Below are positions 28,483 to 54,105 of a stretch of DNA of 64,000 nucleotides, piece by piece. The notes under the pieces are model-generated. The model was not told the DNA's origin. It was given only the letters and a program-made list of their open reading frames with translations, and did not search any database. The stretch is from Candidatus Eiseniibacteriota bacterium (GTDB lineage: Bacteria > Orphanbacterota > Orphanbacteria > Orphanbacterales > Orphanbacteraceae), in assembly GCA_029262235.1 (NCBI GenBank), contig JAJCZU010000004.1, positions 558,001-622,000 on the forward strand, given 5' to 3'. How positions within the stretch are numbered: the stretch's first letter is position 1; each line of letters starts with the position of its first letter. Position numbers and translations under genes: made by a program.

Positions 28483-29223
28483 ATGAAGAAGATGGCTATG
28501 GTTCTCTCGGTGCTGGCGCTCGTCGCCTTCGCCGGAACGGCTGACGCGCAGCCCTGGCATGCGAAAGGCGACTTGTACTGCGCTCCCGGCTGCTGGAACG
28601 ATGACGCGGGGAATCTCATGTACGACGACGGCACGAACGGCGATGCCGTGTCCGGCGACGGCATCTACACGCGCCTCGTGACGACAGACGTCGGCGCGGC
28701 CGGCAAGTACAGCTGGAAAGCCGCCCTGCAGGACTGGTCGGCCTCGTATCCCGGCTCGAATCAGTTCGTGCACATCAACGCCCCGGCCGAGCAGGTTCTC
28801 TTCACGTTCGACACGAACGCGAACGGCGACGGCTGGATTCCGGACCAGAACATCCCGTGGTCCTCGCACTACGCGCCGGTCGGTTCGGCGTTCGAAGTCA
28901 TCGGCGCGGCTCCGGAAACGGGCGGCTGGGCTGACGGTGTTGTCGCTGCGGAAGCGGGCGGCATTCACTCGATCACGATCACGATCGGCACGGCCGGCAG
29001 CTACGACTTCCTCTGGCGCGTCGACAACGACTGGGACGCCCAGACGATGCGCACCGACGGCGGCGCTTCGGGCGGAGCGAACCTGAGCTACACGACCACG
29101 GTCGACAATCAGGACGTGCTGTTCGAGTTCAACGCCAACACGGGCCGCACGCGTACTACGGTGCTGACCTCGACGGCGACGGAAGAGACCAGCTGGACGG
29201 ATATGAAAGAACTCTTCCGCTAG
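28483..29223 (+). CDS. Secreted protein with DDGT-GDGIY module, probably carbohydrate-related
   Basis: A 246-residue exported protein with a clean signal peptide (cleavage around GTADA-QPW) and an ideal AGGAGG seven bases before the ATG. The first half carries a beta-sandwich-like module (GDLYCAPGCWNDD...DDGTNGDAVSGDGIYT...KYSWKAAL) that recurs in the secreted protein at 36721. The second half (PWSSHYAPVGSAFEVIGAAPE...FLWRVDNDWDAQ) looks like a second sandwich, somewhat like starch-binding SusE/F or CBM-type domains. There is no catalytic signature and no C-terminal sorting domain. It is followed by a strong terminator, so it is transcribed alone, directly in front of the amylase gene. Confidence 0.7.
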   Translation: MKKMAMVLSVLALVAFAGTADAQPWHAKGDLYCAPGCWNDDAGNLMYDDGTNGDAVSGDGIYTRLVTTDVGAAGKYSWKAALQDWSASYPGSNQFVHINAPAEQVLFTFDTNANGDGWIPDQNIPWSSHYAPVGSAFEVIGAAPETGGWADGVVAAEAGGIHSITITIGTAGSYDFLWRVDNDWDAQTMRTDGGASGGANLSYTTTVDNQDVLFEFNANTGRTRTTVLTSTATEETSWTDMKELFR

Positions 29224-32300: not shown

Positions 32301-32426
32301 GGCGAAGGTTCCGCGACATGGGACGGTCGGAACGACGCCGGCGACCCCGTGGCTTCGGGCACGTACTTCGTGAAGTTCGAGGCGGGCGGGGTCGAGAAGA
32401 ACCGCAAGATTACGCTGGTGCGGTAA
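29337..32426 (+). CDS. Secreted GH13 alpha-amylase-family enzyme with sorting domain
   Basis: A 1029-residue exported glycoside hydrolase for starch-type glucans. After the signal (about 1-23) the (beta/alpha)8 domain shows all GH13 regions: DVITNH (140-145), GFRIDTVKH with nucleophile Asp 242, GEVFDG with acid/base Glu 277, and FLDNHD with Asp 351. The opening IYQVFTDRFYDGD...THGGDW block is like CGTase/neopullulanase-type amylases. Then follow a Big_5-like Ig domain (ISITFTEAMNEASV, about 545-635), a beta-propeller-like region (about 650-925) and a FlgD-Ig-like C-terminal sorting domain (PNPFNPFTVIDFTV...WDGRNDAGDPVASGTYF...KITLVR). Likely exported by T9SS and held at the surface. Exact specificity (amylase, CGTase or pullulanase) cannot be read. 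Confidence 0.9.
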   Translation: MRFALPVLTALALIWTFPVAVEAGFPSPADWRNESIYQVFTDRFYDGDSGNNNADGSYDPAQGARTHGGDWEGIRQKLDYIQGLGATALWISPVLDNAYGEYHGYATRDRYSFAKQFGDIAALRAMIDDAHARGMYVILDVITNHGGDLIDSGDPGWDSYQNPGTYTLRWRNSGNKPGPPFDNLAWYHNNGGIDNFVDPNQILGELFGLDDYKTEDPAVRDALIESHQWLIDTTDADGFRIDTVKHVELGFWQEFGPALRAYAADSLGKDNFFMFGEVFDGSSFENGKFTGTQGGGAFALDATLWFPMHFTTNGVFRDGGSTEWLSGVYGDSLDYDPAARERLVKFLDNHDIARFMGFGSGADQDESKFKVGMVWLYASIGVPCLYYGSEQEFDGGGDPYNREDMWDGQWDFGPSVGDNFHQAAPLYKYTRRLHELRDALPALRTGSQEEIANSSGAGIYAFYRREAGQTTCLVILNNDGVEHTLTIDPDLPGGVIYEGITGLSRTIPGGGNVTFTIGAQSAAVWSQDDVARAPWVARTWPPHDEPLGDLAGNISITFTEAMNEASVIAALSIAPSIAYGTHWIGKTLVMTPSANLANGTRYTVTIDETASSKTGGAAGGAGATGSLGTPFSFAFDTSPYGGGVNVPAAYYASEITTGKDLITPLCLEASRPGLLDDRLLVGDTGWDRVFYHDDDGFVEMLFDYEVTGSLRPRSIALDREGGHFGGDLVIADNDAFLRGRLDADHFGSVSQIASTPSTGPDWIVAVDPSGDFGGLAYFGGPGENTVRSLDSAGAIATFATGFSSVTGLAFGRESGFGRDLYVSTGSGTIYRVDSGGGKTVFATVTGAGALVFDPVGTFDSSMLVMRSGGAIDKVTGSGAVSSFGSGFGSFPTGDCGAIDALGNFYAVADDRVVKITPLSLETDVDDPVPPPPSFALALEPNRPNPFNPFTVIDFTVPGERGRGVRAKLEVLDIQGRLVRTLVEGVVGAGEGSATWDGRNDAGDPVASGTYFVKFEAGGVEKNRKITLVR

Positions 32427-32489: not shown

Positions 32490-33323
32490 CTACCCCTTCA
32501 CGCCACCGAGCGTCAGCCCCGAAACCAGATAGCGGTTCAGCGCTAGAAAAAGCGCGACGACCGGAATACAGACGAGCACCGCGCCGGCGGAGTAGTTCGC
32601 CCACTCGGTCTGGAACGTGCCGGCGAGCGACTCGAGGCCGAGTGGCAGCGTGTAGAGGTCGAGCGACTGAATGATGACGCGCGCGACCATGAACTCGCTC
32701 CACGCCGTGATGAACGAAAAGAGCGCCGTGATCATGAGCGCGGGCGCGGAGAGGGGCAGCGTCACTTTGCGAAACGCCCCGATCTGTGTGAGACCGTCGA
32801 CCATCGCGGCTTCTTCGAGATCGACCGGAATCGAATCGTAATACCCCTTCATCGTCCAGACGCAGAACGGCAGCGCGGTCGCGACGTACGCGATGACGAG
32901 CCCGGGGAGCGCGTCGAGCAGCCCCACCTTCTTCAATAGCAGGAAGAGCGGCAGCAGCAGCATGGTTGCCGGGAACATCTGCGAAATCAGAAACGACATG
33001 AGCCCGATCCCGCGCCCGGGAAAACGGTAGCGGCAGAACGCGTAGCCCGCGGTCGACGCGAGCGCGACGCCCAGAATCGTGACGGTGATCGAAACGAGCA
33101 GCGAGTTCCGCATCCAGAGCAGGAACGGCTTTTCGAACAGGATCGTCTTGTACGCGTTCAGCGTGGCGCCTTCGGGGATCAGCGCGAGCGAAGTGGAGTA
33201 GAGGCTGTCGCCCGGGCGCAGCGAAATGCTGATCACCTGCAGCACGGGATAGATCGTGACGATCGTCGCCAGGATCAGCGTGAGGTGCACGATCGCCGAC
33301 GTCATCTTTTTGCCCATCGCCAT
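32490..33323 (-). CDS. malG: MalG-like ABC sugar permease
   Basis: A 277-residue inner-membrane permease with six TM segments and the EAA loop (EEAAMVDGLTQIGAFRKVTLPL) that docks the ATPase. The C-terminal SGLTLGGVKG tail is characteristic of MalG-type maltose/maltodextrin permeases. GGAGG lies eight bases before the ATG. Last gene of the K-E-F-G operon, 53 bp after malF. Substrate taken from the gene context (amylase) and MalG similarity. Confidence 0.9.
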   Translation of the reverse strand: MAMGKKMTSAIVHLTLILATIVTIYPVLQVISISLRPGDSLYSTSLALIPEGATLNAYKTILFEKPFLLWMRNSLLVSITVTILGVALASTAGYAFCRYRFPGRGIGLMSFLISQMFPATMLLLPLFLLLKKVGLLDALPGLVIAYVATALPFCVWTMKGYYDSIPVDLEEAAMVDGLTQIGAFRKVTLPLSAPALMITALFSFITAWSEFMVARVIIQSLDLYTLPLGLESLAGTFQTEWANYSAGAVLVCIPVVALFLALNRYLVSGLTLGGVKG

Positions 33324-33376: not shown

Positions 33377-34249
33377 TCACACTTCCTCTTTCTGAATGCG
33401 CATGTAGTACACGACAAAGCTCAGCAGAATCAGGAAGATCACGATCGAAAACGCCGCCGCGTACCCGTACCGGTAGTAATGAAACGCGGCTTTGTAGACG
33501 TATGTCACGAGGATGTGGGTCTTGTCGGCCGGTTCGCCCTGGTTCGTCACGAGCCAGATCACGTTCAGGTTGTTGAATGTCCAGATCGTGCCGAGAACCG
33601 CGGCGGGCCCGAGTACGGGCTTGAGCATCGGAAGCGTGATGCGTCGGAACTGATACCACCAGTTCGCGCCGTCGAGCTGCGCGGCTTCGTACATTTCCTT
33701 CGGGATCGACTGCAGCGCGCCGAGTGCCACGACCATCATGAACGGAAACCCGAGCCACACGTTCGCGATGATCGGCGCTATAAACGCCCACGTTTCGTTC
33801 GAGAGCCACGGTACGGCGGGCAGGTGCACGGCCTTCAGCAGCAGATTCACGGCCCCGTATTCGTAGTTGAACATCCCCTTCCATGTAAGCGCCGTAATAT
33901 ACTGCGGCATCGCCCACGGAAGAATGAGCAGCGCGCGAAACCAGGCGCGGCCGCGCACTTCCTGGTTCAGGAGCAGCGCGAGTCCGATGCCGAGCGTGAG
34001 ATGCGAGACGACGTTGATCGCCGTCCAGAGGATCGTCTTCCCGAAGATGCCCCAGATTTCCGTCTCGAGAAAGATCGTCTTGTAATGGGCGAGTCCGATG
34101 AACTGCGGGTCGCGCAGGTGATAGAGCGACATGTTGGAAAACGAGATCGCGACGTTATATATGAACGGATAGAGGACCACGGCCAGCATGACCAGCACGG
34201 CCGGCGCGAGAAAGAGATAGGCCGTTCGGTATCGACGCGCTCCCGCCAA
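33377..34249 (-). CDS. malF: MalF-like ABC sugar permease
   Basis: A 290-residue permease with about six TM segments. The EAA loop reads KEMYEAAQLDGANWWYQFRRI. It is shorter than E. coli MalF, lacking the large periplasmic P2 domain, as is usual outside enterobacteria. The start is a TTG at 34249, three bases after the malE stop; the AGGGG in the last malE codons serves as ribosome-binding site, so translation is probably coupled. Confidence 0.9.
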   Translation of the reverse strand: MAGARRYRTAYLFLAPAVLVMLAVVLYPFIYNVAISFSNMSLYHLRDPQFIGLAHYKTIFLETEIWGIFGKTILWTAINVVSHLTLGIGLALLLNQEVRGRAWFRALLILPWAMPQYITALTWKGMFNYEYGAVNLLLKAVHLPAVPWLSNETWAFIAPIIANVWLGFPFMMVVALGALQSIPKEMYEAAQLDGANWWYQFRRITLPMLKPVLGPAAVLGTIWTFNNLNVIWLVTNQGEPADKTHILVTYVYKAAFHYYRYGYAAAFSIVIFLILLSFVVYYMRIQKEEV

Positions 34250-34252
34250 CGG

Positions 34253-35479
34253 TTACCCCTTCATCTCTCTGATCTTCTTGATGGCGTCCGCCTGCATGGC
34301 CTTCGCGGCTTCCTGCGGCGTCATTTCGCCGTTGATGACGTTTTGATACGCGGGGCGCATCGCGTCCCAGATCGCGCGCATTTCGGGGACGACGGGCATG
34401 CGTTTGCCGTGCCGCAGCTGTTCCCACGCGGCTTTGATGCGCATGTCGCTCTGAATCGCGGGATCCTTCACGGCTTCGATGCTGCTCGGGATCACGTAGA
34501 GTTCGTGCGCGGTGCGGATCTGCACGGCGGGCGACACGAGATAGCGCAGCGTCTCGAGCGCGCGTTCGAGCTTCGCGCCCTTCAGGTTCGCGTTCACGCT
34601 GTAGCCGCGGCTCGACACGAACGGTGCGGGCCAGAGCCCGGTTTCGTCGTGGATCGGAATCGACGTAACGCCGAAGTCGAGGCCCGCGTCGAGGTACCCG
34701 CCCCACGACCAGTACCCGTTGATCGTGTACGCCGCCTTCCCTTCCTTGAAGAGCGTCTCCGCAAGCTGGATGTCCGTACCGGGAGGCATGAGCCCGCGGT
34801 CGACACGGATGTTCTTCATCATCGCCAGTGCGTTCACCATCGCCTGCGTGTCGAGCGTCGGCTCGCTGTTCGCATTCATGACGCGACCGCCGTAAGCGCC
34901 CAGAAACGGCACGAGCCAGAACGGCTCCTTCGAGTCGAACACGAGCCCGTACGTATCGGGGCGTCCGTCGCCGTCTTCATCCACCGTGAGGGTCTCGGCC
35001 TGGTCGAGCATTTCGCGGAGCGTGCCGGGGACTTCGTCCACGAGCGCACGGTTATAGATGAGGCACAGGTGATTGCCGACCTGTGACGGCAGCGTCCAGA
35101 TATGGCCGTCCAGTGTGTCGAACGCGAGCGGTTCGAAGCCCGCGAGATACTGGTTGTCGAACAGTTTTTCGATCGGCTGAATGACACCCGCCACGCTGAA
35201 CGGGCCCGCGTTGTCCGCGGGGCCGAATACGAGATCGGGCCCGCCGCCCGCCATCGCCGCGGTCAGGAACTGCGTGCGCAGCTGCTCGGGCGGGTAGTTC
35301 GTGTGCTTCACGACAAAACCCGGGTTCGTCGCCTGGAACGCTTCGATCGACTCTTCCAGAATCACGCGTTCTTTCGGGTCCATGAATTCCCAGATTACGA
35401 CTTCGGGTATCTTCTCCGTGCCTTCTCCGCAGGACGCGACAAGGACAAGAAGTACGAGGGGGAGCAGGTACGTCCTCAA
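34253..35479 (-). CDS. malE: Sugar-binding lipoprotein of the maltodextrin ABC importer
   Basis: A 408-residue family 1 extracellular solute-binding protein. Signal with lipobox: RTYLLPLVLLVLVASC, then an acidic linker. The mature part has the typical blocks LTAAMAGGGPDLVFGPADNAG and FKEGKAAYTINGYWSWGG. The start is TTG at 35479, seven bases after GGAGG and overlapping the malK stop as TTGA; a start 12 codons upstream would put charged residues before the signal. It captures maltodextrins (or another oligosaccharide) in the periplasm. Specificity is inferred. Confidence 0.88.
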   Translation of the reverse strand: MRTYLLPLVLLVLVASCGEGTEKIPEVVIWEFMDPKERVILEESIEAFQATNPGFVVKHTNYPPEQLRTQFLTAAMAGGGPDLVFGPADNAGPFSVAGVIQPIEKLFDNQYLAGFEPLAFDTLDGHIWTLPSQVGNHLCLIYNRALVDEVPGTLREMLDQAETLTVDEDGDGRPDTYGLVFDSKEPFWLVPFLGAYGGRVMNANSEPTLDTQAMVNALAMMKNIRVDRGLMPPGTDIQLAETLFKEGKAAYTINGYWSWGGYLDAGLDFGVTSIPIHDETGLWPAPFVSSRGYSVNANLKGAKLERALETLRYLVSPAVQIRTAHELYVIPSSIEAVKDPAIQSDMRIKAAWEQLRHGKRMPVVPEMRAIWDAMRPAYQNVINGEMTPQEAAKAMQADAIKKIREMKG

Positions 35480-36549
35480 AGAGAAATCCTCCGTTCGGTT
35501 CGCGGATCGAACCAATGGATCTGTTGGTGATCGAAAGTGACCATGAGTGTTTCGCCCAGCGTGAATCGTCGCATGCCGTCGATCTTCGCCACGAGGCGCG
35601 TGCCGTCTTCGAGGGCGAGATAGACGATGGTTTCGCCTCCCATGGGCTCCACGAGCACAACCTGGGCCGGCAGGCCGCCGCCACCCTCGGCGACGTCGAC
35701 ATGTTCGGGGCGGATGCCGGCGAGCACGGTGTCGAGTGACGGTTCCGCCGCGCCTGTGTTCCCCGTGAAAGGAAGAGGGTGCCCCGCGTACTGAAACACG
35801 CCGTCTTTTTTCGTGAGCGACATGAGGTTCATGGGCGGCGAGCCGATGAACTCCGCGACGAAACGATTCGCGGGTGTATTGTACAGTGTTAAAGGTTCGT
35901 CGGTCTGCTGAATGTGGCCTCCGTTCAGAACCGTGATCCGCTCGCCCATCGTCATCGCCTCCACCTGGTCGTGCGTGACGTAGATCGTCGTGATCTGGAG
36001 CCGTTTGTGCAGGGCCGATATCTCCGCCCGCATCTGAACCCGGAGCTTCGCGTCGAGGTTCGAAAGCGGTTCGTCGAACAGAAACACCTGCGGCTTGCGC
36101 ACGATCGCCCTTCCGAGCGCCACGCGCTGGCGTTCGCCTCCCGAAAGATGGCGCGGGAGCTTCTCGAGCTTGTCGGAAAGGCTCAGCACTTCCGCCGCTT
36201 CGCCCACGAGCCGCGCCAGTTCCTGCTTCGGCGTCTTCCGTACCCGCAGCCCGAACGCGATATTCTCGAATACGGTGAGGTGGGGGTAGAGGGCGTAACT
36301 TTGAAAGACCATCGCGATGTCGCGATCACGGGGGGCGAGGTCGTTCACGACCCGGTCGCCGATACGGATTTCGCCCGCGTCGACCGGTTCGAGGCCCGAA
36401 AGGACGCGGAGAACGGTCGATTTCCCGCATCCGGAGGGGCCCACCAGCACCATGAACTCGCGGTCGTGGACCTCGAGGTCGATGTTGTCCAGAACCGTGA
36501 TTCCGGCCCCGTAGCGCTTCGTGACGCCGCTCAGACGTACTCCAGCCAA
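35476..36549 (-). CDS. malK: MalK/UgpC-type ABC transporter ATPase
   Basis: A 357-residue ATPase: Walker A GPSGCGKST, Q-loop FQSYALYPHLTV, signature LSGGERQRVALGRAI, Walker B VFLFDEPLSNLDAKLR, switch His in THDQVEAMT. A TOBE-type regulatory domain (AGIRPEHVDV...VEPMGGETIVYL) forms the C-terminal third. The TTG at 36549, preceded by GAGGA, gives the usual family length; the frame is open 52 codons further up but that part overlaps the promoter region and is not MalK-like. First gene of the importer operon, ahead of the binding protein and permeases. It may serve other importers as well, as MsmX does. Confidence 0.9.
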   Translation of the reverse strand: MAGVRLSGVTKRYGAGITVLDNIDLEVHDREFMVLVGPSGCGKSTVLRVLSGLEPVDAGEIRIGDRVVNDLAPRDRDIAMVFQSYALYPHLTVFENIAFGLRVRKTPKQELARLVGEAAEVLSLSDKLEKLPRHLSGGERQRVALGRAIVRKPQVFLFDEPLSNLDAKLRVQMRAEISALHKRLQITTIYVTHDQVEAMTMGERITVLNGGHIQQTDEPLTLYNTPANRFVAEFIGSPPMNLMSLTKKDGVFQYAGHPLPFTGNTGAAEPSLDTVLAGIRPEHVDVAEGGGGLPAQVVLVEPMGGETIVYLALEDGTRLVAKIDGMRRFTLGETLMVTFDHQQIHWFDPRTERRISL

Positions 36550-36619
36550 GGATTCCTCGTGGTTGGTCGTGTCGGTCGGTTTCGGCGGATTTCCGCTGTG
36601 ACTGTACACCGCGAGAGTG

Positions 36620-36653
36620 CCACATCTCGATGGATTATTCCACCGGAATGTGG
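36620..36653. promoter_or_regulatory. Nested dyad upstream of the maltodextrin importer
   Basis: An outer inverted repeat CCACAT (36620-36625) / ATGTGG (36648-36653) encloses an inner perfect one, ATTCC-ACC-GGAAT (36637-36649, overlapping the outer right arm by two bases). It stands in the 171-bp divergent spacer between malK and the secreted protein at 36721. A further dyad GATAGACTATC occurs at 36693-36703. Position and symmetry suggest an operator for sugar-responsive control of both genes; the regulator is not in the window. Confidence 0.4.
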
Positions 36654-36720
36654 TACTATCATTTGACTTACGGCAAACCGCTCCAGCTCTGAGATAGACT
36701 ATCACAACAAGGGAGAAGCC

Positions 36721-38820
36721 ATGCGCAAATGGACTTTACTAACGGGCGTTCTGCTCGCCGCGCTCCTGACTCACACGGATGCGCGCGCGGAAGCGTTCGG
36801 AACACCGACGATCGACGGAGTAATCGACGGTGTCTATGGCGCCGCGGAAGCATCGGATCCGTTCGGCGATCACTGGGCATCGAACAACAACATCGATCTC
36901 GGCGACCTGTACGTGTGTAACGACGCGACGTTCTGGTACTTCGCATTCACGGTGAACGACAATATCGTGACGACGAACTGGGGCAAGTACGTACTCAACA
37001 TCGACACGACGAACGACACGAACGGCGGAACCTCGGACCCGTGGGGCCGGAACGTCACGATCAGCGACCCGCACAAGTCGGAATACACCGTACGAAGCTG
37101 GCTCGACGCGCAGCCGTACGGCCCCGAAGACAGCCAGCTCTGGTCGTGGGACCAGGGGACGACGACCTGGAACCTGACGAGCGCGCTCGTGGACGCCAAG
37201 GTCGGCGCCGGCACGACGTCCGTTCTCGAATGGAAAATCGCGAAAGCCGACATCGGCGACCCCGACACGATCTATGTCGAAGTGTGGACGACCGGCGGTG
37301 GTGGCACCGACAACGCGCAGGACACGTCGAACGATCCGGCCGACGACTGGAACGCGACCGACTGGGCGACGACGTCGGTGCTCTCGAGCTCCACGTGCGT
37401 CGCGAAGCAGACGGGTACGGATGTGACGCCGCCGACGGTTTCCTCCGCCCGCCCGACGCTCCAGGACGGCGCAGGCGATCCGGATTATGACAACGTGGTC
37501 GTCAAGTTCTCCGAAGCCGTGCAGATCGGTCAGGCGACAAACACAGCGAACTACACGGTGACAGGCGCCACGATCAATTCGGTAAGCGTCCTGTCGGTCG
37601 ATACTTACCAGCTGAATCTCGCGGCGGACCTGCCGCTCGGAAGCTGTATCACGGTGGAGGCGACCGGCATCGCCGATGCGGCCGGCAACACGATCGTGGA
37701 CAACAATGTAACGAACGTCGACGACTTCTATCTGACGAAACTCGTCATCAACGGCCTCATGAACCTGCATCTGCAGTCGACGTCCTACTTTCCCGCCGCC
37801 GACACGTTCGGGATCGAAGGAAGCCTGGCGCCGCTCACGTGGGATCCGCTCTGCGACGACCTGATGAACGACGCCGGCACGGGCGGCGACGCCGCTGCAG
37901 GCGATTCGATCTACGCGAAGACGCTCGTGTTTGCGAACGGCTGCACCGGCGGCCTGACCGACACGCTGACCGTCGAGTACAAATTCAATCATCAGTGCAC
38001 GAACCCGGGCTACGAGTCGACGTCGAATCACGTCTACACGCTCGACGGATCGATTCCGTGCGACACGCTGAACATCTGGTGGGAAGACATCGCGCCGATC
38101 AACCTGACCGACAAGGACATCGACGTGATCTTCTTCATCGCCGGCCTCGTGCCGCCGTTCGACACGGGCGACAGCCTTGCGGTCAACGGCTCGCAGCTTC
38201 CTTTCGACTTCAACCTGCCGCCGCTTGCGACGAGCGTGATGAATGACGACGGCACGGGCGCCGACTCGACGGCCGGCGACGGGATCTACTCGCTCCGCGC
38301 GACGTTCCCGACCGGAACGATCAAGAACTTCGAGTACAAGCACGTCATGAAGGACTTCGGCGACACGCTCTGGGTCTATGAGTGTGACGGCCAGGGGAAC
38401 CGCAACGTATTCCTGAACGACTCGCTCTTCTCGACGGCGAATCCGATCGTGCTCGACTTGCTCTACTGGGACTTCTGCGGTGATGTGGTCGGTGTCGACG
38501 ATGCCGATCCGGAGAGCGCGATTCCGGGAACGGCGATGAAGCTGTTCCAGAACACGCCGAATCCGTTCAACCCGCGCACGTCGATCGAGTTCAGCCTGCC
38601 TGAGCGTATGGCCGTGAACCTGAACGTGTATGACGCTTCGGGACGGCTCGTGAAAACGCTGCTCGACCGCGAGCTCGGCGCCGGCGCGTACACCGGCGGC
38701 AACGCGGTCGTATGGGACGGCACGGACAACGCAGGAAAACCGGTCTCGTCCGGCATGTACTTCTACAAGCTGCAGAACGAGAAGGAAAACATCACGCGGA
38801 AGATGACGCTGATCCGCTAA
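36721..38820 (+). CDS. Secreted multidomain protein with DDGT-GDGIY modules and sorting domain
   Basis: A 699-residue exported protein (signal to about DARA-E). Order: a CBM9/DOMON-like region (TPTIDGVIDGVYG...DLYVCNDATFWYFAFTVND), a Big_5-like Ig domain (DNVVVKFSEAVQIGQATNTA, about 255-335), two beta-sandwich modules with the motifs MNDAGTGGDAAAGDSIYA and MNDDGTGADSTAGDGIYS, and a FlgD-Ig-like C-terminal domain (PNPFNPRTSIEFSLP...WDGTDNAGKPVSSGMYF...KMTLIR). No catalytic centre is apparent; it looks like a surface glycan-binding protein for the starch locus. ATG 36721 follows GGGAGAAG. It is divergent from malK and ends in a strong terminator. Confidence 0.75.
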   Translation: MRKWTLLTGVLLAALLTHTDARAEAFGTPTIDGVIDGVYGAAEASDPFGDHWASNNNIDLGDLYVCNDATFWYFAFTVNDNIVTTNWGKYVLNIDTTNDTNGGTSDPWGRNVTISDPHKSEYTVRSWLDAQPYGPEDSQLWSWDQGTTTWNLTSALVDAKVGAGTTSVLEWKIAKADIGDPDTIYVEVWTTGGGGTDNAQDTSNDPADDWNATDWATTSVLSSSTCVAKQTGTDVTPPTVSSARPTLQDGAGDPDYDNVVVKFSEAVQIGQATNTANYTVTGATINSVSVLSVDTYQLNLAADLPLGSCITVEATGIADAAGNTIVDNNVTNVDDFYLTKLVINGLMNLHLQSTSYFPAADTFGIEGSLAPLTWDPLCDDLMNDAGTGGDAAAGDSIYAKTLVFANGCTGGLTDTLTVEYKFNHQCTNPGYESTSNHVYTLDGSIPCDTLNIWWEDIAPINLTDKDIDVIFFIAGLVPPFDTGDSLAVNGSQLPFDFNLPPLATSVMNDDGTGADSTAGDGIYSLRATFPTGTIKNFEYKHVMKDFGDTLWVYECDGQGNRNVFLNDSLFSTANPIVLDLLYWDFCGDVVGVDDADPESAIPGTAMKLFQNTPNPFNPRTSIEFSLPERMAVNLNVYDASGRLVKTLLDRELGAGAYTGGNAVVWDGTDNAGKPVSSGMYFYKLQNEKENITRKMTLIR

Positions 38821-41478: not shown

Positions 41479-43131
41479 TCAGCGCTTCCCGATTGCGCGA
41501 ATTGCGTACGTGCGGTTCACTTCGTCCAGCTTCACTTCGTATGTCCCGGGGGCCAGGCTGAACTGGCCGAGCGCGGGCGCTTCGTTGTTGCCGGTGCCCA
41601 GGCAGACGATGCCGGAAAGCGGGTCACTGCAGCTCAGGTTTTCCGAAGTGCAGCTGCCGTAGTCGTTCGCGCCCCAGTCTTCGGCCGTCCGGAACTTGAG
41701 GAACGTGCAGATCTGGGTCGCGACGTCGAGAGTGTCGACCCAGATGCCGCCCTCGATTTCGATCATGCTGGCGCGCGTCGTGCTCCAGTTCGTGACATCG
41801 CCCACGATCCGGATCACGTCGTATTCGGATTCGTAGCCGGCGACGGCTTCGAGCGTCACGGTACCGATGTCGGTCGTGGCGCCTGCCGTGACGACGATGT
41901 CGCTGATTGTCGTGTCCCGGAAACCGGCGGACGACGACAGGAACGCGACGAAGTATGTGCCCGGAGCGAAGTCGGTCAGCAGGAACGTGCCGTCGACGGG
42001 GTCGGCGAATACGGTCACCGTGTCACCCTCGGCGCGTACGGCGACCGCGGCGACGCCGGGTCTCGGATCCGGCGTTTCGCTGAACGCGACCGTGCCGCTG
42101 ATATTCCCGGCGCGACGCATCGTGATCGGAGCAAGATCCGTTTCGTCGCCCGCCTCGAAGTCGGTGCCGTCGACGACCTGCGTCACATAGCCGGGCGCCG
42201 ACAGAACGAACTCGTACGCGCCGTCGCTGAGACCCTCGGCCGTGAACGTGTTCGCGTCGGGCGCGATCAGAAGCGTGTCGACCACGCCGCCGGTGTCGCT
42301 GAAGCGCACGAGCACGGTCACTTCGGGGCGCACGGCCGGGTTGTCTTCGAACGACACGGTCCCGCGAATGAAGCCTTTGGGTACCACCTGGATCGTGCCG
42401 AGGTCGACGCCCGCCTCACCCGTGACCTTGACCTTGCGCACGAAGCGGGTCGGGAAGTTCACGCGGTCCGACGGCACGTCGATGACGAGCGTGTAAAGAC
42501 CCGGCAGCAGGTTTTCGAACGCGAAGGAAGTGATGTCGCCGCCGAGCGTATCCCACGGCACTTCTCCTCCGGCCTCGATAATCTGGTAGACGGCGGGAGC
42601 ATTCGAGGCGTTCAGCAGAAAGATGTAGTCGTCATTCACCGGGATCACGGCCGGGATGTCGTCGCCGTTCTCCGGCGTGACTTCGCCTGTCCGCGCTTCT
42701 TCGTCGATCTCGCAGTCACCGCAACCCGCGTAGCTGCCGTCCCACGCGCGATTCGTGACGAACTTCCACGCAAAAGCGTCATCGCTCGTGAGCGAGATCG
42801 TCTCCATCCAGAGGCACGGGAACATCTGCGTCATGCCGGGAGTCGTGTCCCAGAGCCCAATGTCCCAGGCGGTGTACGTACCGGTAACGTGAATGCTCGA
42901 GGGACCGTTCGCGCAGGCGGGATCGTAATCTTTGAAGATGTAAACGACCGTCTGCGGGTTCACCGGCACGTCGCCCCAGTCGAGGATGCCGGAGACGAGT
43001 CCCTCGGCGACGATGACGTCGGCGAACGGGTCGAGAAACGGACTGCTGGTATTGTCGCCGCAGCTCAGCGAAAACGCGAGCAGCGCAAAGAGGGGAAGTG
43101 CGACCAGCAATGGATATCGCTTGGTTGGCAT
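41479..43131 (-). CDS. Surface/periplasmic lipoprotein with carboxypeptidase-regulatory-like repeats, SusE/F-like ends
   Basis: A 550-residue lipoprotein (MPTKRYPLLVALPLFALLAF, lipobox SLSC). The N-terminal 200 residues and the last 110 residues (VGDVTNWSTTRASMIEIEGG...APALGQFSLAPGTYEVKLDEVNRTYAI) resemble starch-binding modules of SusE/SusF or pullulanase type. Between them are three carboxypeptidase-regulatory-like beta-sandwiches (RGTVSFEDNPAVRPEVTV, SGTVAFSETPDPRPGVAA and one earlier). It likely binds alpha-glucans at the cell envelope. GGAG stands before the ATG. It follows the small CBM48 lipoprotein by 12 bp. Binding is inferred from fold resemblance and location. Confidence 0.7.
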   Translation of the reverse strand: MPTKRYPLLVALPLFALLAFSLSCGDNTSSPFLDPFADVIVAEGLVSGILDWGDVPVNPQTVVYIFKDYDPACANGPSSIHVTGTYTAWDIGLWDTTPGMTQMFPCLWMETISLTSDDAFAWKFVTNRAWDGSYAGCGDCEIDEEARTGEVTPENGDDIPAVIPVNDDYIFLLNASNAPAVYQIIEAGGEVPWDTLGGDITSFAFENLLPGLYTLVIDVPSDRVNFPTRFVRKVKVTGEAGVDLGTIQVVPKGFIRGTVSFEDNPAVRPEVTVLVRFSDTGGVVDTLLIAPDANTFTAEGLSDGAYEFVLSAPGYVTQVVDGTDFEAGDETDLAPITMRRAGNISGTVAFSETPDPRPGVAAVAVRAEGDTVTVFADPVDGTFLLTDFAPGTYFVAFLSSSAGFRDTTISDIVVTAGATTDIGTVTLEAVAGYESEYDVIRIVGDVTNWSTTRASMIEIEGGIWVDTLDVATQICTFLKFRTAEDWGANDYGSCTSENLSCSDPLSGIVCLGTGNNEAPALGQFSLAPGTYEVKLDEVNRTYAIRAIGKR

Positions 43132-43143
43132 GACCGGAATCTC

Positions 43144-43554
43144 CTATTCCACAATGAGGAGCGAGTTGTAACCGCCGAAGCCGTCGTCGACGCGCAGCGG
43201 ATTGTTCGGATCCTCTTTCCAGGTGTTTTCGTCGATTACGAATTTGTACTGATACCGGCCCGTGGGGAGAGCCTCGACCAGCGTCCAGACGCCGTCGCCG
43301 TCTTCGTCGGACATGAGGCCGATGTTATAGCTGCCCGTTTCGGCCTGGCCCGCGAGCCAGTTGTTCCGCTCCCAGTTGCCCGCAAGCTGCACGCGGTGCG
43401 CGGAGGGCGCTTCGAACTGGAAGTGAATGCCGTTTTCGACCGGATAGGGCGGAGGGAGACGCCGCTTGATGAAATCGAGCCCGCCGCATCCGAGCGGCAG
43501 AGCGACGATCAGAGCGAGAAGGGGGAGCCATCGTTTGTGTCGTGCGTTTTGCAT
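43144..43554 (-). CDS. Small CBM48 glycogen/starch-binding lipoprotein
   Basis: A 136-residue lipoprotein (signal ending LPLGC). The mature part is almost only a CBM48/isoamylase-N-like domain: HFQFEAPSAHRVQLAGNWERNNW and GRYQYKFVIDENTWKEDPNNP, containing the aromatic and Lys residues used for alpha-1,4-glucan binding in AMPK-type CBM48 domains. ATG 43554 follows AGGGG at eight bases; an upstream in-frame start would lie inside the preceding gene. It sits 16 bp after the CBM48-barrel gene, and its domain is clearly related to the N-terminal domain of that protein. Confidence 0.75.
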   Translation of the reverse strand: MQNARHKRWLPLLALIVALPLGCGGLDFIKRRLPPPYPVENGIHFQFEAPSAHRVQLAGNWERNNWLAGQAETGSYNIGLMSDEDGDGVWTLVEALPTGRYQYKFVIDENTWKEDPNNPLRVDDGFGGYNSLLIVE

Positions 43555-43570: not shown

Positions 43571-45757
43571 CTAGAAATGAATGATGCCTTCGATCTGGAA
43601 GCGTTCCTCGTCCTGAAGCGCCTGCTCGGCGTCCCGGATCGTGTCCCCGAGGCCGGGGTAGTTCCGCCGGGCGGCATCGCCGTTGGCGCCGCGGTCGAAC
43701 AGGAACGCGTCCCTTCCTATATTACTGTACTCATTGATCGTCTCGTCCACCACGTACGGATCGACTCCGTAGGAGAGGGCGATCTCGAGCCCCTGGCCGA
43801 ATTCCCACGCCACTTCCGCAAATGTCGACGCAAACGACGAAAAGAGGGCGAGAACCGGGTCATTATACTTCGCGAGGCGGGTGTCGCTCATGAGGCGCAC
43901 CTGCTTCCAGGGACGGGCCGTCAGGATGAAATACGTTTCGACGAGCTTCGGATCGCGCCCCTGCACGCCCGAAATTCGGCCGCGATACTCGAAATCGACC
44001 GCTTTCGGTTCGTAGATCGAGAACGCGAGGCCCGGCTTCCAGACCATGACATCCTCGCCGCCGAGCAGCGTCATGCGATGATACGAGACCTCGTGCTCGT
44101 TCTGCTCGAGCCAGAAGTTCCGCTTGTCGAACCAGAACTGATTCTCCCAGGGCGTCCGCGTGTCGTAATCGAAATTATACCAGTCGACTTGAACCCCTAT
44201 CGTGAGCCCGCGCAGGCCCTTGAAGCTCTTGTCGCCCGCGAGCGAGAACGTATTCAGGCTGTTCTCGAGCGTGTCGGGAATGCCCGTAGCGAGGAAGTTC
44301 TGCTCGTGCGTCTCGCGCTCCCAGGCGATTCCGAGGTCCATGTCCCACTTACTAATACGATACGAACCTCCCAGATGGATGCGGTTCGAACGGTCGAGTT
44401 CGTACGATTCCTTCGGAATGGGGCGCTGCTGTGAAATGATCTCGATCCCCGCAACGAGAACCGAGTCCTCTTCGATTTCGTCGTAAACGTTCACGGTGCG
44501 GACCGCCGCGTCCGCTTCGGTGCCGCCCCGGCCGACGACTTCGGCGCGCCCGTGCAGGAATTCGGCCGTGAACTTGTACGGTTTACTCGGATGGGAGTAC
44601 TGGATGTCGCCGCCGCCGGCGTACCACTGCTCCACGGTGTTCGCAAATCCGACCGCCGTGCCGAGCGTGTCGCCGAGGTCGGCTTCGTCATCAATCAGCA
44701 ATGTAAGCGTACCCGGATTGTAGCCCCGGTCGAGGCGGAAAGAGCCGCCGAACCGGAAGTTGTTCAGGGGGAGTCTGGCGCGCGCCGCGAAAACGTCCTT
44801 GTCGTTGTCGTCGTCCGTGACGTCGTAAGTCGTAAACGGGTTCGAAGAGATCGTTGCCCGGTCGGGGTCCGCAAATTCGAACCCGTCGAATTCGTTCTGG
44901 AGCGAGTCGAGCGTGCCGCGTGTCGTGCCGCCGTTCTCGAAATCGTCCGCGTAAAGCAGTGTGAGCGACAGATCGCGCCACTCGGTCGTCGCGATCGCGC
45001 CCTGCTGCCGATACCCGAATGCGTGGTCGTAGATCCCGATGCCGCCGACGATCTGCAGCGGATCGTCCCAGACGACGCGCATCGGATCTTCCCACGTCCC
45101 CACGGCTTCGTTGTCGAACAGCTTGATGTCGAAGTACTCCGTGTTCGCCGTGATCGACCCGCGGTCGAAGCGCATGTTCGTGCGCCAGAACTCCGTGACC
45201 GTGGCCTCGTTCTCGTTGTTGATATTCGTGAGCAGGTGGATCTGCGCGATCTCGTTGACGCGGATATTCCAGTCGAGGTCGATGTCCATCGACGGGCGTT
45301 CCAGTTCGTACTGATCGCCGCGGCCCGCGTTCTCACTCGACTTGTAAAGGCCGATCATGCGGCCGCCCAGCATGATTTTCGGCGAGAAGGCGACGTTCGA
45401 AGTGGCGGTGCCCACGATCTGCGTTCCCGCTGACGAAATTTCGACGACCGAGTTGCCGTAGCCGCCCGCAGTGCGCGGATTGTCGGGGTCGGCGATCCAC
45501 TGCCCGTCCACCACGAACTTGTATTCGTGCGAGCCGGCCGGCAGTTTCACCGTGGTCCGCCAGACATCGCCCTGCTTCCGCATGGCGTGTGTGGTGGTGT
45601 TCCAGTTATTGAATTCGCCGGCGACTGAAACGCTCCCCGCCTGCGGGTCCGAATGCGTGAACACGACCCCCATCGGAGTCACCTCGACCGCGGCGAATGC
45701 GTGCGGCGCGGTCAGCAGGAACGTCAGCGCGAGAGCCGCTCGAATGAACTTGTGCAT
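43571..45757 (-). CDS. Outer-membrane beta-barrel with N-terminal CBM48 domain
   Basis: A 728-residue exported protein (signal to about HAFA). Residues 23-108 are a CBM48 domain (VSVAGEFNNWNTTTHAM, GSHEYKFVVDGQWIADPDNP). The rest (about 120-728) is alternating hydrophobic/polar strands with many aromatic girdle residues and a C-terminal Phe (IEGIIHF), the sign of a BAM-assembled outer-membrane barrel of about 20 or more strands. This suggests a porin or channel with a fused starch/glycogen-binding module, perhaps to capture maltodextrins at the outer membrane. No TonB box or plug is visible. I do not recognise a named family for the full architecture. Confidence 0.72.
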   Translation of the reverse strand: MHKFIRAALALTFLLTAPHAFAAVEVTPMGVVFTHSDPQAGSVSVAGEFNNWNTTTHAMRKQGDVWRTTVKLPAGSHEYKFVVDGQWIADPDNPRTAGGYGNSVVEISSAGTQIVGTATSNVAFSPKIMLGGRMIGLYKSSENAGRGDQYELERPSMDIDLDWNIRVNEIAQIHLLTNINNENEATVTEFWRTNMRFDRGSITANTEYFDIKLFDNEAVGTWEDPMRVVWDDPLQIVGGIGIYDHAFGYRQQGAIATTEWRDLSLTLLYADDFENGGTTRGTLDSLQNEFDGFEFADPDRATISSNPFTTYDVTDDDNDKDVFAARARLPLNNFRFGGSFRLDRGYNPGTLTLLIDDEADLGDTLGTAVGFANTVEQWYAGGGDIQYSHPSKPYKFTAEFLHGRAEVVGRGGTEADAAVRTVNVYDEIEEDSVLVAGIEIISQQRPIPKESYELDRSNRIHLGGSYRISKWDMDLGIAWERETHEQNFLATGIPDTLENSLNTFSLAGDKSFKGLRGLTIGVQVDWYNFDYDTRTPWENQFWFDKRNFWLEQNEHEVSYHRMTLLGGEDVMVWKPGLAFSIYEPKAVDFEYRGRISGVQGRDPKLVETYFILTARPWKQVRLMSDTRLAKYNDPVLALFSSFASTFAEVAWEFGQGLEIALSYGVDPYVVDETINEYSNIGRDAFLFDRGANGDAARRNYPGLGDTIRDAEQALQDEERFQIEGIIHF

Positions 45758-45785: not shown

Positions 45786-47345
45786 TTAGAAGTTCCCTTT
45801 CATAATCAGACGAATGATGTCCTTGTTGTCCGCGCTTCCCGCGAGGTCGCCGTCGTTGACGGGGACCGCGTCATCGCCGATCCACCACGGACCGTACGAA
45901 AGAAACATCTCGAAGCTTTCCGCGGGGCGGAACTGCAGTTCGGAGAATATCCCCTTGCGCAGCCGCGCGGGGTCGTTGCCGAACGCGTAACGATTGTAGA
46001 TCTTGAGTTTCGATGTCAGGTTTACGGACGTTTCGAGCGACACGAGCTCTTTGCGGAGCGTGGTCTCGAGGTCCTTGATCTTGCCCTGCACGCGCATCCA
46101 CGCGAGCCGGCTTTCCACCTGCACTTCGCCGAACAGATCGTAGTTCTTGATCTCTTCAGCGAAAAGCGGGTTGCCGAAGTCCGTGGTCTTGCGTCTGTCG
46201 TACCAGATCTTGCTCGTGAAGCCGTTCACGTATTCCGTGTACATCTCGGCCCGGAACTGCTGGAACTTCTTGTCCTCGAAGCGCGTCCGGCGGTTTTCCT
46301 CCCAGTCGAGCGTGACCGTGATCGCGCGCCCGGGGATCAGGTACCAGCTGTTCAGCTTGTAGCCCACGAGATCGTTCGTGGCGTCGCCGAGGTTGGCCGT
46401 GTAGTCGTGTCCGAAATAGTAGTATTGCGGGGCGATGTTGTAGTAGCCGAGCCTCGGATTTCCGAAGCGGAGCGAGCGCAGTTCCGCTTTGAACGCGGCG
46501 TCGTTCGGGAGCAGTCGATTGAACTCGTCGATCTCCCATTCGTCGAACTGGAACGTGCCGTCAGGGGCCGCGTTCGAGCCCGCGATCCGGCTGTCCGCGT
46601 ATTCCACGAAGAGATCCATGTTCATCATCGTGTACCGGAAATCGAGCGCGTACACTTCGTTATAGCCGAGGCCGCTCTCCGTGTCGATGTCCTGGGTTTC
46701 GACCTTGCGCGCGTATGTCATGCCGGCGCGGAACCTGTTGTCCCAGAACGAGCGCCTGAGCCGGAACACGTGCGCGTCGTCGGTGCTCGTGGGAATCGCG
46801 TCGCCGCCGACCTGCGTCTGGCTCGAGAAGTCGCTCATGATATACGTGGCTTCGAAGCCCTTGTAGCGCCGCAGGTCGAGCCGCACGCCCTGCGCGTTTC
46901 CGCCGTCCGTCGTCTGCCCGCCCTGCACGATCTGCAGAAGCTGATTCTCGACCCAGAAACGGTCTTCGCGCGAGAAGAGGTACGAGTCGAACTCGCTGTT
47001 GTCCCCGAACTCCTTGCGGAACCGTATGTGGCTCTCCCGGTACTGGAAGAGCGGGCGTTCGTTGTTGTTCGAACCCGAGTTCCAGTCGGCTTCGAAGCGC
47101 ACGAACCCTTCGACACCCTTGCGCGGTGACGTGAAGACCCGGAACTGCGAGGCCGCCCAGGTGTCGTCGTTGTTCGACTCGAAATTCCACGGATAGAAAC
47201 GGTCCTGTTTGCGGACATCGAGCTGCAGCTGATACTCGCCTTCGACCCGCGTGAACGCGGCGGCATCCGAAGCGAGGAGCAGCCCGAGGAGAGGCGCGAC
47301 GACGATGGCGGTGCGCGCGAGAAGGCGGATCGTACGCGGGATCAT
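45786..47345 (-). CDS. Outer-membrane beta-barrel protein, unknown family
   Basis: A 519-residue exported protein (signal to about DAAAF) with antiparallel beta-strand periodicity throughout (YQLQLDVRKQDRFYPWNF, QFRAEMYTEYVNGFTSKIWY) and C-terminal Phe (MKGNF). Its strands resemble those of porin-like or alginate-export-like barrels, but no family is recognised. Start ATG overlaps the PorV-like stop as ATGA; the CBM48-barrel gene follows 28 bp later. It may form a second pore for the starch operon or be an assembly partner of the PorV-like protein. Confidence 0.65.
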   Translation of the reverse strand: MIPRTIRLLARTAIVVAPLLGLLLASDAAAFTRVEGEYQLQLDVRKQDRFYPWNFESNNDDTWAASQFRVFTSPRKGVEGFVRFEADWNSGSNNNERPLFQYRESHIRFRKEFGDNSEFDSYLFSREDRFWVENQLLQIVQGGQTTDGGNAQGVRLDLRRYKGFEATYIMSDFSSQTQVGGDAIPTSTDDAHVFRLRRSFWDNRFRAGMTYARKVETQDIDTESGLGYNEVYALDFRYTMMNMDLFVEYADSRIAGSNAAPDGTFQFDEWEIDEFNRLLPNDAAFKAELRSLRFGNPRLGYYNIAPQYYYFGHDYTANLGDATNDLVGYKLNSWYLIPGRAITVTLDWEENRRTRFEDKKFQQFRAEMYTEYVNGFTSKIWYDRRKTTDFGNPLFAEEIKNYDLFGEVQVESRLAWMRVQGKIKDLETTLRKELVSLETSVNLTSKLKIYNRYAFGNDPARLRKGIFSELQFRPAESFEMFLSYGPWWIGDDAVPVNDGDLAGSADNKDIIRLIMKGNF

Positions 47346-48235
47346 CGTTCGCCCCCGATCGGAATGGTGAGCGAACTCGTGAACGAGACGCCGAGAGTCT
47401 TGTGCGTGACGAAGCCCGTGTCGAGCTGCCAGCGTTCGGCGATCAGTCCGAAGCCGCCCCAGAATTCGTCATCGAGGAGCCCGCTCCGGAGCGCGAACAC
47501 GTCGTAGAAACGAACCTCGCCGCCGATGTTGACCGCGAGTTCGTCTTTCTTGTTGCGCGCTGTTCCGATCGAAACGACCGAGCTCTCGTTCCAGTAGTAG
47601 GCAAGTCCCGACTCGAACTCCGTGTCGACAGGCGATCCGCCGTTGCCGTCGATGAAGTCGAACTCCGGGTTTCCCAGATTACGAAGCGTGGCGCCGACGG
47701 CCACTTTCGCGTGAGGGCGATAGAGCACACCGACGTCGAGTGCGGCTTTCGTCTGCGAGCCGTAGTCGAAGCTTTCCGCGCGCGCCGTGAACTGGCTGTA
47801 CGAAACGCGCAGCAGTTTTACCGTGGCCCCGATCCCTACGGCGCCGATGCTCGGGAGTTCCGTCTTCCCGCCCCAGGCGAGCGCGAACGCGTCTTCGCTC
47901 TGTACGTCCTGCAGGCCGAGATGATGCCACGAGGCGCCGAGCGTGCCGAAGCGCGTCGGATACGCGGCGGCGATGTAGTTGATCGCGAGATCATTAATAA
48001 TGTAAGGGCGGTAGTGGTTGAAGAGCACGGCGACACGGTTCTGGTTCGCGAGCCCGCCGGGATTCCAGTGAATGGCAGAGGGGTCGTCCGCGATCGCATG
48101 AAACGCCGACCCCATTGAAAGGGCACGCCCGCCGACTTCCATGCGGTCGAAGTAAGCTTCCGCCGGGTCGCCCGTGACAAGCAGTACGCCTGCTGCGAGG
48201 CACGCCGCGAACCGGAATGTGCGTGCGATCTTCAT
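47342..48235 (-). CDS. PorV/PorQ-like outer-membrane barrel
   Basis: A 297-residue exported protein with the PorV/PorQ (FadL-like) opening motif AFHAIADDPSAIHWNPGGLA right after the signal peptide (GGRALSMG), followed by short beta-strands and ending with SLTIPIGGER. In T9SS organisms PorV carries cargo from the translocon to the surface attachment complex, and paralogs exist with other cargo roles. ATG 48235 overlaps the upstream stop by ATGA. Its co-transcription with a sorted CBM9-like protein and a CBM48 barrel suggests a dedicated shuttle for this operon; this is inference. Confidence 0.72.
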   Translation of the reverse strand: MKIARTFRFAACLAAGVLLVTGDPAEAYFDRMEVGGRALSMGSAFHAIADDPSAIHWNPGGLANQNRVAVLFNHYRPYIINDLAINYIAAAYPTRFGTLGASWHHLGLQDVQSEDAFALAWGGKTELPSIGAVGIGATVKLLRVSYSQFTARAESFDYGSQTKAALDVGVLYRPHAKVAVGATLRNLGNPEFDFIDGNGGSPVDTEFESGLAYYWNESSVVSIGTARNKKDELAVNIGGEVRFYDVFALRSGLLDDEFWGGFGLIAERWQLDTGFVTHKTLGVSFTSSLTIPIGGER

Positions 48236-49608
48236 CGAATCACCGAAAACGCTTTGTTCGAACTGTTCTGCCCGGGCTCGATCACGAGTCGCAGCACATA
48301 AATTCCGCCTGGCACCATTTCGCCGCGTTCGTCGCGCCCGTCCCACTGATCGTCTTCGGGCACCGCGTATTCCACAATGGAACGCTGCTCGTTGCGATAG
48401 AGCGTCTTGATGAGCTGTCCCTGGAGATCGTATACCTCGGCCGTCAAGTCCACGTTACGAAACTCGTCGCCGCTCGGCGGGTCCACGAGGAACGTGAACT
48501 CGAGTGGAAGGTCCTCCTCCGGCGAAACGACGGGACGAATGAGAACGATTTCGGAAATCGTGAAGCGAACCCCGAACAGCGGCGGCGCTGCGAGAAAGGA
48601 AACGCGGCGCGAAACGGCCACGCCGTCGAGATCCGGGAGGCCGTCGGCGACAACGGAGTCGACAGTGGACGAGTCGGGGAACAGGGACTGTTCCCCCGTG
48701 CTCGAGAGGTAATACGTGATGTCGAGGGGAACGATGGCGTAGTTGTCGACGGTCACGAGGTCGCTCGCCTCGGTCGTGTGTCCGCCGAAGTTGTCGGGGG
48801 CGGAATCCGGCCCGCCCGTGCCGTCGCCGCCCGCCGTCAGCACGGCCGCGAAACGAATCGTGTGCGCCGGGTCGAGGCCGTTCGGGAGCACGTAAGTCGA
48901 ATCCCCGGTCCGTTCGTCGTATGCGCGCACGAGCAATTCGGGAAAGAAGACCGTCCACGGGATGCGGGCTTCCATCGACCGCCCCTGCGCCCCCTGCGCG
49001 AACGTGGCGACAGTCTCGAACAGCGTGTTGTCGATCTGTGTCACCGTATTGGCGCCGGACGCCCGCCATGTCTGCGGCGTCGTATTGCCGTCCCAGGTGG
49101 CCATGAAGAAGTCGGGGAAGAAGTTGTTCGAGAATACGAAGTTGCGGCGCCACGCGTTCAGTTCGGTCATCTTTTCGAGACCGCCGTTCCGGTAGTCGAA
49201 CAGCAATATGATGTTGTTGTCCCATGCGATCCCGTCGACCGCGACGTAAAGGTTTTCCGCGTCCCAGCTGATCCAGATCTGATTGATATCGTTGTTGAAT
49301 CCCCACCGGGAATCGTCGGGGCGTTCCTGCAGAATGCGCTCCAGGCTGCCGTCGCCGTCGAGGTCCGTGAGCGTTTCTCCGAAAACGAACTCGTCTTCGC
49401 GCGAGAAATCCGTCGAGTTGCCGTCGATCAGAATGCGTTCGGTGAGATCCGGGGCAGTGGCGGCCAGGGCGATCCCGGGGAGAGAGCCATTCATGAGTGC
49501 GAGGCAGAGGGAAATGGCGGCGGCGGATCGCAGGCAGCAACCGGGGTTCGGCCGGCGCGCGCGGTGATGGTGCCGGATCCTGGAAATGATGTCCGATAGG
49601 GGTTTCAT
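48232..49608 (-). CDS. Secreted CBM9/DOMON-like protein with C-terminal sorting domain
   Basis: A 458-residue exported protein. The signal lies at about residues 25-50 (SAAAISLCLALMNGSLPGIA), preceded by an unusually long basic n-region. Its core carries sandwich strands of CBM9-like or glucodextranase-C-like type (ERILIDGNSTDFS, INQIWISWDAENLYVAVDG, RSMEARIPWTVFF). The C-terminus is a FlgD-Ig-like domain (VDLTAEVYDLQGQLIKTLY...DQWDGRDERGEMVPGGIYVLRL). First gene of the leftward starch-type operon; ATG 49608 was chosen over an upstream start because the latter lies within the promoter region and adds non-signal residues. Confidence 0.68.
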   Translation of the reverse strand: MKPLSDIISRIRHHHRARRPNPGCCLRSAAAISLCLALMNGSLPGIALAATAPDLTERILIDGNSTDFSREDEFVFGETLTDLDGDGSLERILQERPDDSRWGFNNDINQIWISWDAENLYVAVDGIAWDNNIILLFDYRNGGLEKMTELNAWRRNFVFSNNFFPDFFMATWDGNTTPQTWRASGANTVTQIDNTLFETVATFAQGAQGRSMEARIPWTVFFPELLVRAYDERTGDSTYVLPNGLDPAHTIRFAAVLTAGGDGTGGPDSAPDNFGGHTTEASDLVTVDNYAIVPLDITYYLSSTGEQSLFPDSSTVDSVVADGLPDLDGVAVSRRVSFLAAPPLFGVRFTISEIVLIRPVVSPEEDLPLEFTFLVDPPSGDEFRNVDLTAEVYDLQGQLIKTLYRNEQRSIVEYAVPEDDQWDGRDERGEMVPGGIYVLRLVIEPGQNSSNKAFSVIR

Positions 49609-49617
49609 GAGGGCCCG

Positions 49618-49647
49618 ATGATAGCACCAGGGGTAGAAAACGAACAA
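49618..49647 (-). promoter_or_regulatory. Possible promoter of the leftward CBM48/PorV operon
   Basis: On the minus strand TTGTTC (49642-49647), 18-bp spacer, TATCAT (49618-49623). The -10 matches five of six consensus positions, the -35 three. The start site would be only a few bases before the ATG at 49608, giving an almost leaderless mRNA. Weak evidence. Confidence 0.3.
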
Positions 49648-51068: not shown

Positions 51069-51110
51069 TGTGAACCTCCTGGACCGACGTTGTCGGTTCG
51101 TTCGTGAGCT

Positions 51111-53909: not shown

Positions 53910-53953
53910 GATCAGGGCCTCCTGGATCGATCGTGTGACCTTTTCTTGCCCGC

Positions 53954-54012
53954 ATGGTAGGGAGGGACGATTAGGATTGAATGAGCGAGCCGTTAAGATT
54001 GCATTAGGATCG
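53954..54012 (-). promoter_or_regulatory. 11-bp periodic direct repeats upstream of the TonB receptor
   Basis: Read on the minus strand, 53969-54012 falls into four 11-base units: CGATCCTAATG, CAATCTTAACG, GCTCGCTCATT and CAATCCTAATC. Units 1, 2 and 4 are clearly related and unit 3 is diverged. Nine bases after the last unit is TACCAT (53954-53959), a plausible -10, so the repeats would occupy the -35 region. An 11-bp repeat pitch upstream of a weak -10 is how OmpR/PhoB-family activators bind (the Pho box has 11-bp repeats). No such regulator is encoded here. Whether it serves the receptor or the divergent kinase is unknown; the geometry fits the receptor. Confidence 0.5.
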
Positions 54013-54105
54013 CGTGTCGGGATGCGGATTCGCGCTCGCCACAAATCCCGAGCCCTGCTATCGTTATCCGGACGCGTGAGTTAGCAGGCCAAGGAGACCC
54101 CACGT

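Follow-up and report, generated by a model that had tools for sequence, protein, structure and literature searches.

In Bacteroidota, the capture and uptake of starch are carried out by the Sus system (SusCD, SusE/F/G), a single locus that brings together secreted enzymes and binding lipoproteins. In enteric bacteria, the LamB pore passively admits maltodextrins and feeds them to MalE and the MalFGK importer. The sucrose porin ScrY carries an N-terminal periplasmic extension, which is a coiled coil, and CBMs in other systems serve as tethers. To our knowledge, the passage of starch fragments across the outer membrane in Gram-negative bacteria beyond Bacteroidota and Proteobacteria is mostly unknown. 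A further entry route is provided in Caulobacter by MalA, mentioned as a maltodextrin TonB receptor in PMC6851124. The glycogen-binding domain of AMPK contacts beta-cyclodextrin through beta1 residues W100, K126, W133, L146 and T148, and glycogen binding becomes markedly lower when these contact residues are mutated (PMC2642990).

Here, we analyse a locus in which a CBM48 domain of the AMPK type precedes a predicted outer-membrane barrel within a single protein, called the CBM48-barrel below. The window is the whole 64,000-nt stretch of DNA analysed, positions 558001-622000 of contig C4, from a 4.47 Mb assembly in 11 contigs.

Results

On the minus strand, the gene begins at position 45757 and ends at 43571; these are exactly the coordinates of the original prediction, which had assigned the 728-residue protein no strand. 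The CBM48 domain proposed for residues 23-108 was recovered by two Pfam profiles, both above their curated cut-offs: PF16561 (AMPK1_CBM) on residues 33-104 (E = 1.8e-16, 60.5 bits against 26.8) and PF02922 (CBM_48) on residues 27-87 (E = 8.4e-10, 39.3 bits against 22.4). Its nearest PDB sequences are the glycogen-binding domains of AMPK beta-2 and beta-1 (E = 3.8e-12), and the alignment pairs W52, K80 and W87 with the beta1 residues W100, K126 and W133. These three residues, together with N102, are invariant across 21 homologs. The contact L146 is replaced by Tyr100, a position held by Tyr or Phe among the homologs, and T148 lies opposite a two-residue gap. The profile and PDB matches confirmed the assignment of an AMPK-type CBM48 and make the domain a putative alpha-glucan binder.

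The remainder of the protein, residues 126-728, is likely an outer-membrane beta-barrel, as judged from its sequence pattern and from structural models. A signal peptide, read by eye, begins the protein, and an alternating hydrophobic strand ends it; the final Phe is invariant among the 19 homologs whose C-terminus is intact, and these proteins close with QIEGIIHF, GIMAVITF and similar sequences. Hydrophobic alternation in the family profile was found in 89 windows, compared to 31 +/- 10 in shuffles, while the single sequence reached a z-score of only 1.7. Residues 113-728 had no Pfam or NCBIfam family matches, and a PDB sequence search with a barrel profile built from 19 homologs returned chance matches or none, and no solved barrel. 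The search of this remainder against barrel families therefore yielded no named family, although weak Porin_4 matches appeared in 3 of 21 homologs (best E = 0.0025). In Pfam searches, the protein matched neither the TonB plug (PF07715), the TonB-receptor barrel (PF00593) nor LamB (PF02264).

AlphaFold models of the full-length protein and of the barrel only, each from five aligned sequences, both contained long antiparallel strands, about 20-22 in number, at low confidence (pLDDT 43 and 41). Their leading PDB fold matches were outer-membrane barrels, the best being 22-strand TonB receptors, with query-normalised TM-scores below 0.3 that are too low for reliance. The barrel foreseen in the original prediction thus stands on the terminal Phe, the strand pattern and the kind of fold matched, and it lacks a named family and a confident model. 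The linker joining the CBM to the first strand is short, varies little in length and contains an invariant Asn121.

The protein is encoded within a run of genes for secreted and outer-membrane proteins, with a Mal-type ABC importer and a secreted amylase in the same window (Table 1).

Table 1. Positions in the window of the CBM48-barrel gene, its protein regions and the neighbouring genes
Feature	Position	Strand	Evidence
CBM48-barrel protein, 728 aa	43571..45757	-	ORF; PF16561 E = 1.8e-16; homologs
Signal peptide, residues 1-22 (MHKFIRAALALTFLLTAPHAFA)	45692..45757	-	Read by eye; position conserved in homologs
CBM48 / AMPK glycogen-binding domain, residues 24-108	45434..45688	-	Profile, PDB match, homolog alignment
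Predicted outer-membrane beta-barrel, residues 126-728, end QIEGIIHF	43574..45382	-	Low-confidence models, fold matches, C-terminal strand
Short CBM48 lipoprotein, 136 aa from MQNARHKRW, lipobox LPLGC, directly downstream	43144..43554	-	PF16561 E = 1.6e-6; synteny
Secreted or lipoprotein with CarboxypepD_reg domains	41479..43131	-	Pfam; synteny
Second predicted outer-membrane barrel, 519 aa, directly upstream	45786..47345	-	Synteny; hhalign
PorV/PorQ-family (FadL-type) outer-membrane protein	47342..48235	-	NCBIfam PorV_fam; synteny
Secreted protein, FlgD/T9SS-like C-terminal domain, first of conserved run	48232..49647	-	Pfam, NCBIfam, synteny
MalK/UgpC-type ABC ATPase	35476..36705	-	PF00005, PF08402, PF17912
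MalE-type sugar-binding protein	34253..35515	-	PF13416 E = 1.6e-31
MalF-type permease	33377..34249	-	PF00528
MalG-type permease	32490..33323	-	PF00528
Secreted GH13 alpha-amylase, FlgD-like tail	29337..32426	+	PF00128 E = 1.7e-49, PF13860
Small protein, X25 pullulanase-type starch-binding domain	28483..29223	+	PF22058 E = 1.3e-10
Secreted protein, T9SS-like tail; kept beside cluster in G001 and G004	36721..38820	+	Pfam, NCBIfam, synteny

Over about 175 residues, the N-terminal part of the second barrel resembles the CBM48-barrel (hhalign probability 95.3, E = 2.3e-8), and by this similarity the two may be old paralogs. The PorV_fam match of the next protein upstream (E = 6.8e-19, 68.6 bits) falls below the cut-off of 90, and some homologs of the CarboxypepD_reg protein elsewhere carry a CBM48 as well. 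Other genes lie at the edges of the cluster. Just upstream, positions 49746-54044 encode a TonB-dependent receptor (TonB-Xanth-Caul, E = 5.9e-68, below cut-off) and a beta-helix lipoprotein; this pair is absent from the clusters of the other genomes, and it could carry maltodextrin here, though it stands outside the conserved cluster. It is preceded by a Ser/Thr protein kinase with PEGA domains (54106-56613). Between the cluster and the secreted-protein gene that starts at 36721 lies an ORF that looks by eye like an arginine deiminase or DDAH (40672-41436), with a counterpart of 73% identity in the sister contig L017.

We found that the fusion is no isolated case: by sequence similarity, it belongs to a family kept in at least three groups of bacteria. 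All seven genomes of the window's phylum have a homolog, with identities of about 50-87%, and so do 17 of 20 genomes from a second phylum (that of L020). A broader draw matched 23 of 386 genomes: 7 from the window's phylum, 3 apparent duplicates of second-phylum genomes, with which they share contig numbers and almost all details of match position, and a remaining 13. An N-terminal CBM48 is present in every one of the 34 full-length homologs examined (6 + 15 + 13), in one to four copies, with two in L128 and L130 and four in L135. Between the two phyla, the CBM is 53% identical and the barrel 19%; therefore, the binding domain is the more strongly constrained part. The barrel family was not found among 198 Bacteroidota genomes, a group for which no positive control exists, and viral contigs contained no relatives.

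Two unusual forms were set aside. A single ORF that joins a barrel to two tandem CBM48s (L111:5426-8251, genome G020) is likely a deletion or an assembly error, because its junction lacks both the last barrel strand and the signal sequence of the next gene. The upstream extension of a 1086-aa form in G002 (L042) probably reflects a wrong start and not a real domain. The other CBM48 matches that we ran through Pfam were GH13 enzymes, CBM48-only proteins, an esterase or a ParA-like protein, and not barrels. One of these architectures occurs in the window's own genome (L010:670-1767; C4, ~1178-1179 kb), where a ParA/MinD-like ATPase (AAA_31, E = 4.7e-55) ends in an AMPK-type CBM48 (E = 7.9e-13). 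In the same phylum, C-terminal CBM48 matches also fall on ORFs of ParA/MinD-like length in L047, L048, L050, L055 and L058, identified by ORF length and the CBM48 match alone. By its domain content, such a protein could be a partitioning ATPase tied to glycogen.

The gene order around the homologs has a common core: a PorV-like protein, the related barrel, the CBM48-barrel and a short CBM48 protein. Within the window's phylum, this core is preceded by a FlgD-tailed secreted protein and followed by a CarboxypepD protein. In relatives from this phylum, a divergent secreted GH13 with two to four AMPK-type CBMs adjoins the cluster; in the window's own genome, this GH13 gene is ~80 kb away (L065). 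The second phylum places a large secreted protein ahead of the core, and there the short protein has two CBM48s and a lipobox-like sequence. The run then continues with MalF, MalG, MalE, a Glucodextran_C protein and a GH57 with CBM48, and a MalF gene is downstream in all nine loci. Of the 13 loci from other groups, 11 have the related barrel immediately upstream (one contig ends there, and in one locus the barrel was not detected), 12 have the short CBM48 gene immediately downstream (one contig ends there), and 7 include Mal importer genes within the stretch examined. The cluster neighbours tested included no glucan synthase.

We then compared these genomes with the described starch systems. 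Across the two phyla (27 genomes) and 16 further entries, neither SusD (PF07980) nor LamB (PF02264) had a match; positive controls matched in Bacteroides for both and in E. coli for LamB. These 43 entries represent 40 distinct genomes, as three look duplicated, and 37 have a CBM48-barrel while 3 do not. All 15 genomes tested encode SprA, the type IX translocon, which in the window's own genome (G000) lies at C2:833031-834173; its presence is consistent with export of the FlgD-tailed amylases.

Discussion

Our reading, to which we assign a probability of roughly 0.7, is that the CBM48-barrel would be the pore through which alpha-glucan (maltodextrin) enters, in a locus for starch use that lacks both SusCD and LamB. 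We favour an uptake role because the genes kept beside it encode secreted enzymes (GH13 or GH57) and a MalEFGK importer. Outside the cell, these secreted enzymes would break down starch or glycogen, and the resulting maltodextrins would cross the outer membrane via the CBM48-barrel. At its periplasmic mouth, the CBM48 would bind the alpha-1,4-glucan chain, stopping its escape and favouring inward movement, and the short CBM48 lipoprotein and the MalE-type protein would hand the glucan to MalFGK in the inner membrane. The barrel fold, the pore function, the direction (import and not export), the periplasmic orientation and the hand-over to MalE are all parts that we infer.

By the usual topology rule, a domain that is N-terminal to an outer-membrane barrel ending in Phe faces the periplasm. 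Consequently, the CBM48 is more likely a trap that faces the periplasm and holds glucan on the exit side than a gatherer on the cell surface. The original prediction had glucan concentrated at a pore by the CBM. That view gains from the conserved and adjoining amylases, CBM48 lipoproteins and MalEFGK genes, although the cell-surface side is now less likely. In this form, a CBM holding alpha-glucan at a pore is partly supported and agrees with the gene context more closely than the rival readings do.

The structural evidence bears on two of the rival explanations. The CBM48 could be a plug in the lumen of a barrel of about 20-22 strands, displaced or rearranged by glucan so as to make a starch-gated channel. 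The strand number, the best matches to TonB receptors, which are barrels that need a plug, and the constrained linker with its invariant Asn121 would all suit such a channel. We consider it unlikely, since the models are of low confidence and homologs with two or four CBM48s could seat only the last one. It is very unlikely that residues 126-728 form a long soluble beta-rich domain without a membrane barrel. The missing family match, the weak alternation of the single sequence and the poor models would allow it, but it must be set against the invariant C-terminal Phe strand, leading fold matches to outer-membrane barrels, the weak Porin_4 matches and the relationship to the neighbouring predicted barrel.

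The gene context bears on the other two. A non-conducting anchor at the surface or in the membrane, holding starch or amylases in place while the upstream barrel (45786-47345) acts as the pore, would draw on the tethering role of CBMs elsewhere and on the conservation of that barrel alongside (11 of 13 distant loci), with its related N-terminal part. An anchor is improbable, however, as a periplasmic N-terminal domain is ill-suited to catching external starch, and both barrels are conserved together. The PorV-family neighbour, the FlgD/T9SS-like tails of other neighbours and the ubiquity of SprA in the genomes tested could instead point to a cluster that exports or displays alpha-glucan or secreted amylases, its barrels serving in type IX secretion. 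We regard this as quite unlikely, because MalEFGK importers and hydrolases accompany the cluster, a glucan synthase was not seen among the neighbours tested, and a CBM on the barrel has no evident role in protein export.

If the CBM48-barrel is an entry pore, then its family is a conserved candidate for starch-fragment entry where SusD and LamB are not found, and a CBM trap at the pore mouth, if true, would allow directed uptake without TonB energy. More tentatively, and with some doubt on our part, starch may enter independently of TonB across several phyla, with a CBM built into the pore as a plug or periplasmic trap that makes passive diffusion directional. In practice, starch-uptake loci of uncultured groups could be flagged by the barrel profile and by the short CBM48 protein that accompanies it. 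The CBM48-barrel looks like an undescribed route for the uptake of starch fragments; a CBM48-porin fusion had no earlier description in the literature searched, a scope that excluded subscription papers and preprints.

The CBM48-barrel shares features with each of the closest described systems. Like the AMPK beta glycogen-binding domain, its CBM belongs to the CBM48 family and keeps the W, K and W glucan contacts, but here the domain is exported and stands ahead of a barrel, without a kinase complex. As in Sus, a single locus would provide for the capture and uptake of starch at the outer membrane, together with binding lipoproteins and secreted enzymes; the differences are that the genomes lack SusD, the barrel has no plug or TonB-receptor domain by Pfam, the CBM and the barrel form one polypeptide and the inner-membrane step is a Mal ABC importer. 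The predicted passive maltodextrin pore, feeding MalE and MalFGK, recalls LamB, yet the CBM48-barrel is predicted to be larger and carries a CBM48, and the genomes searched have no LamB homolog. ScrY, too, is a porin for a sugar and carries an additional periplasmic domain at its N-terminus, in its case a coiled coil and not a CBM. Caulobacter MalA is similarly an alternative outer-membrane entry for maltodextrin, but a TonB-dependent one (PMC6851124). The CBM48-barrel would be maltoporin- or Sus-like in its working, but by the sequence tests for LamB, SusD, the plug and the TonB receptor it belongs to neither.
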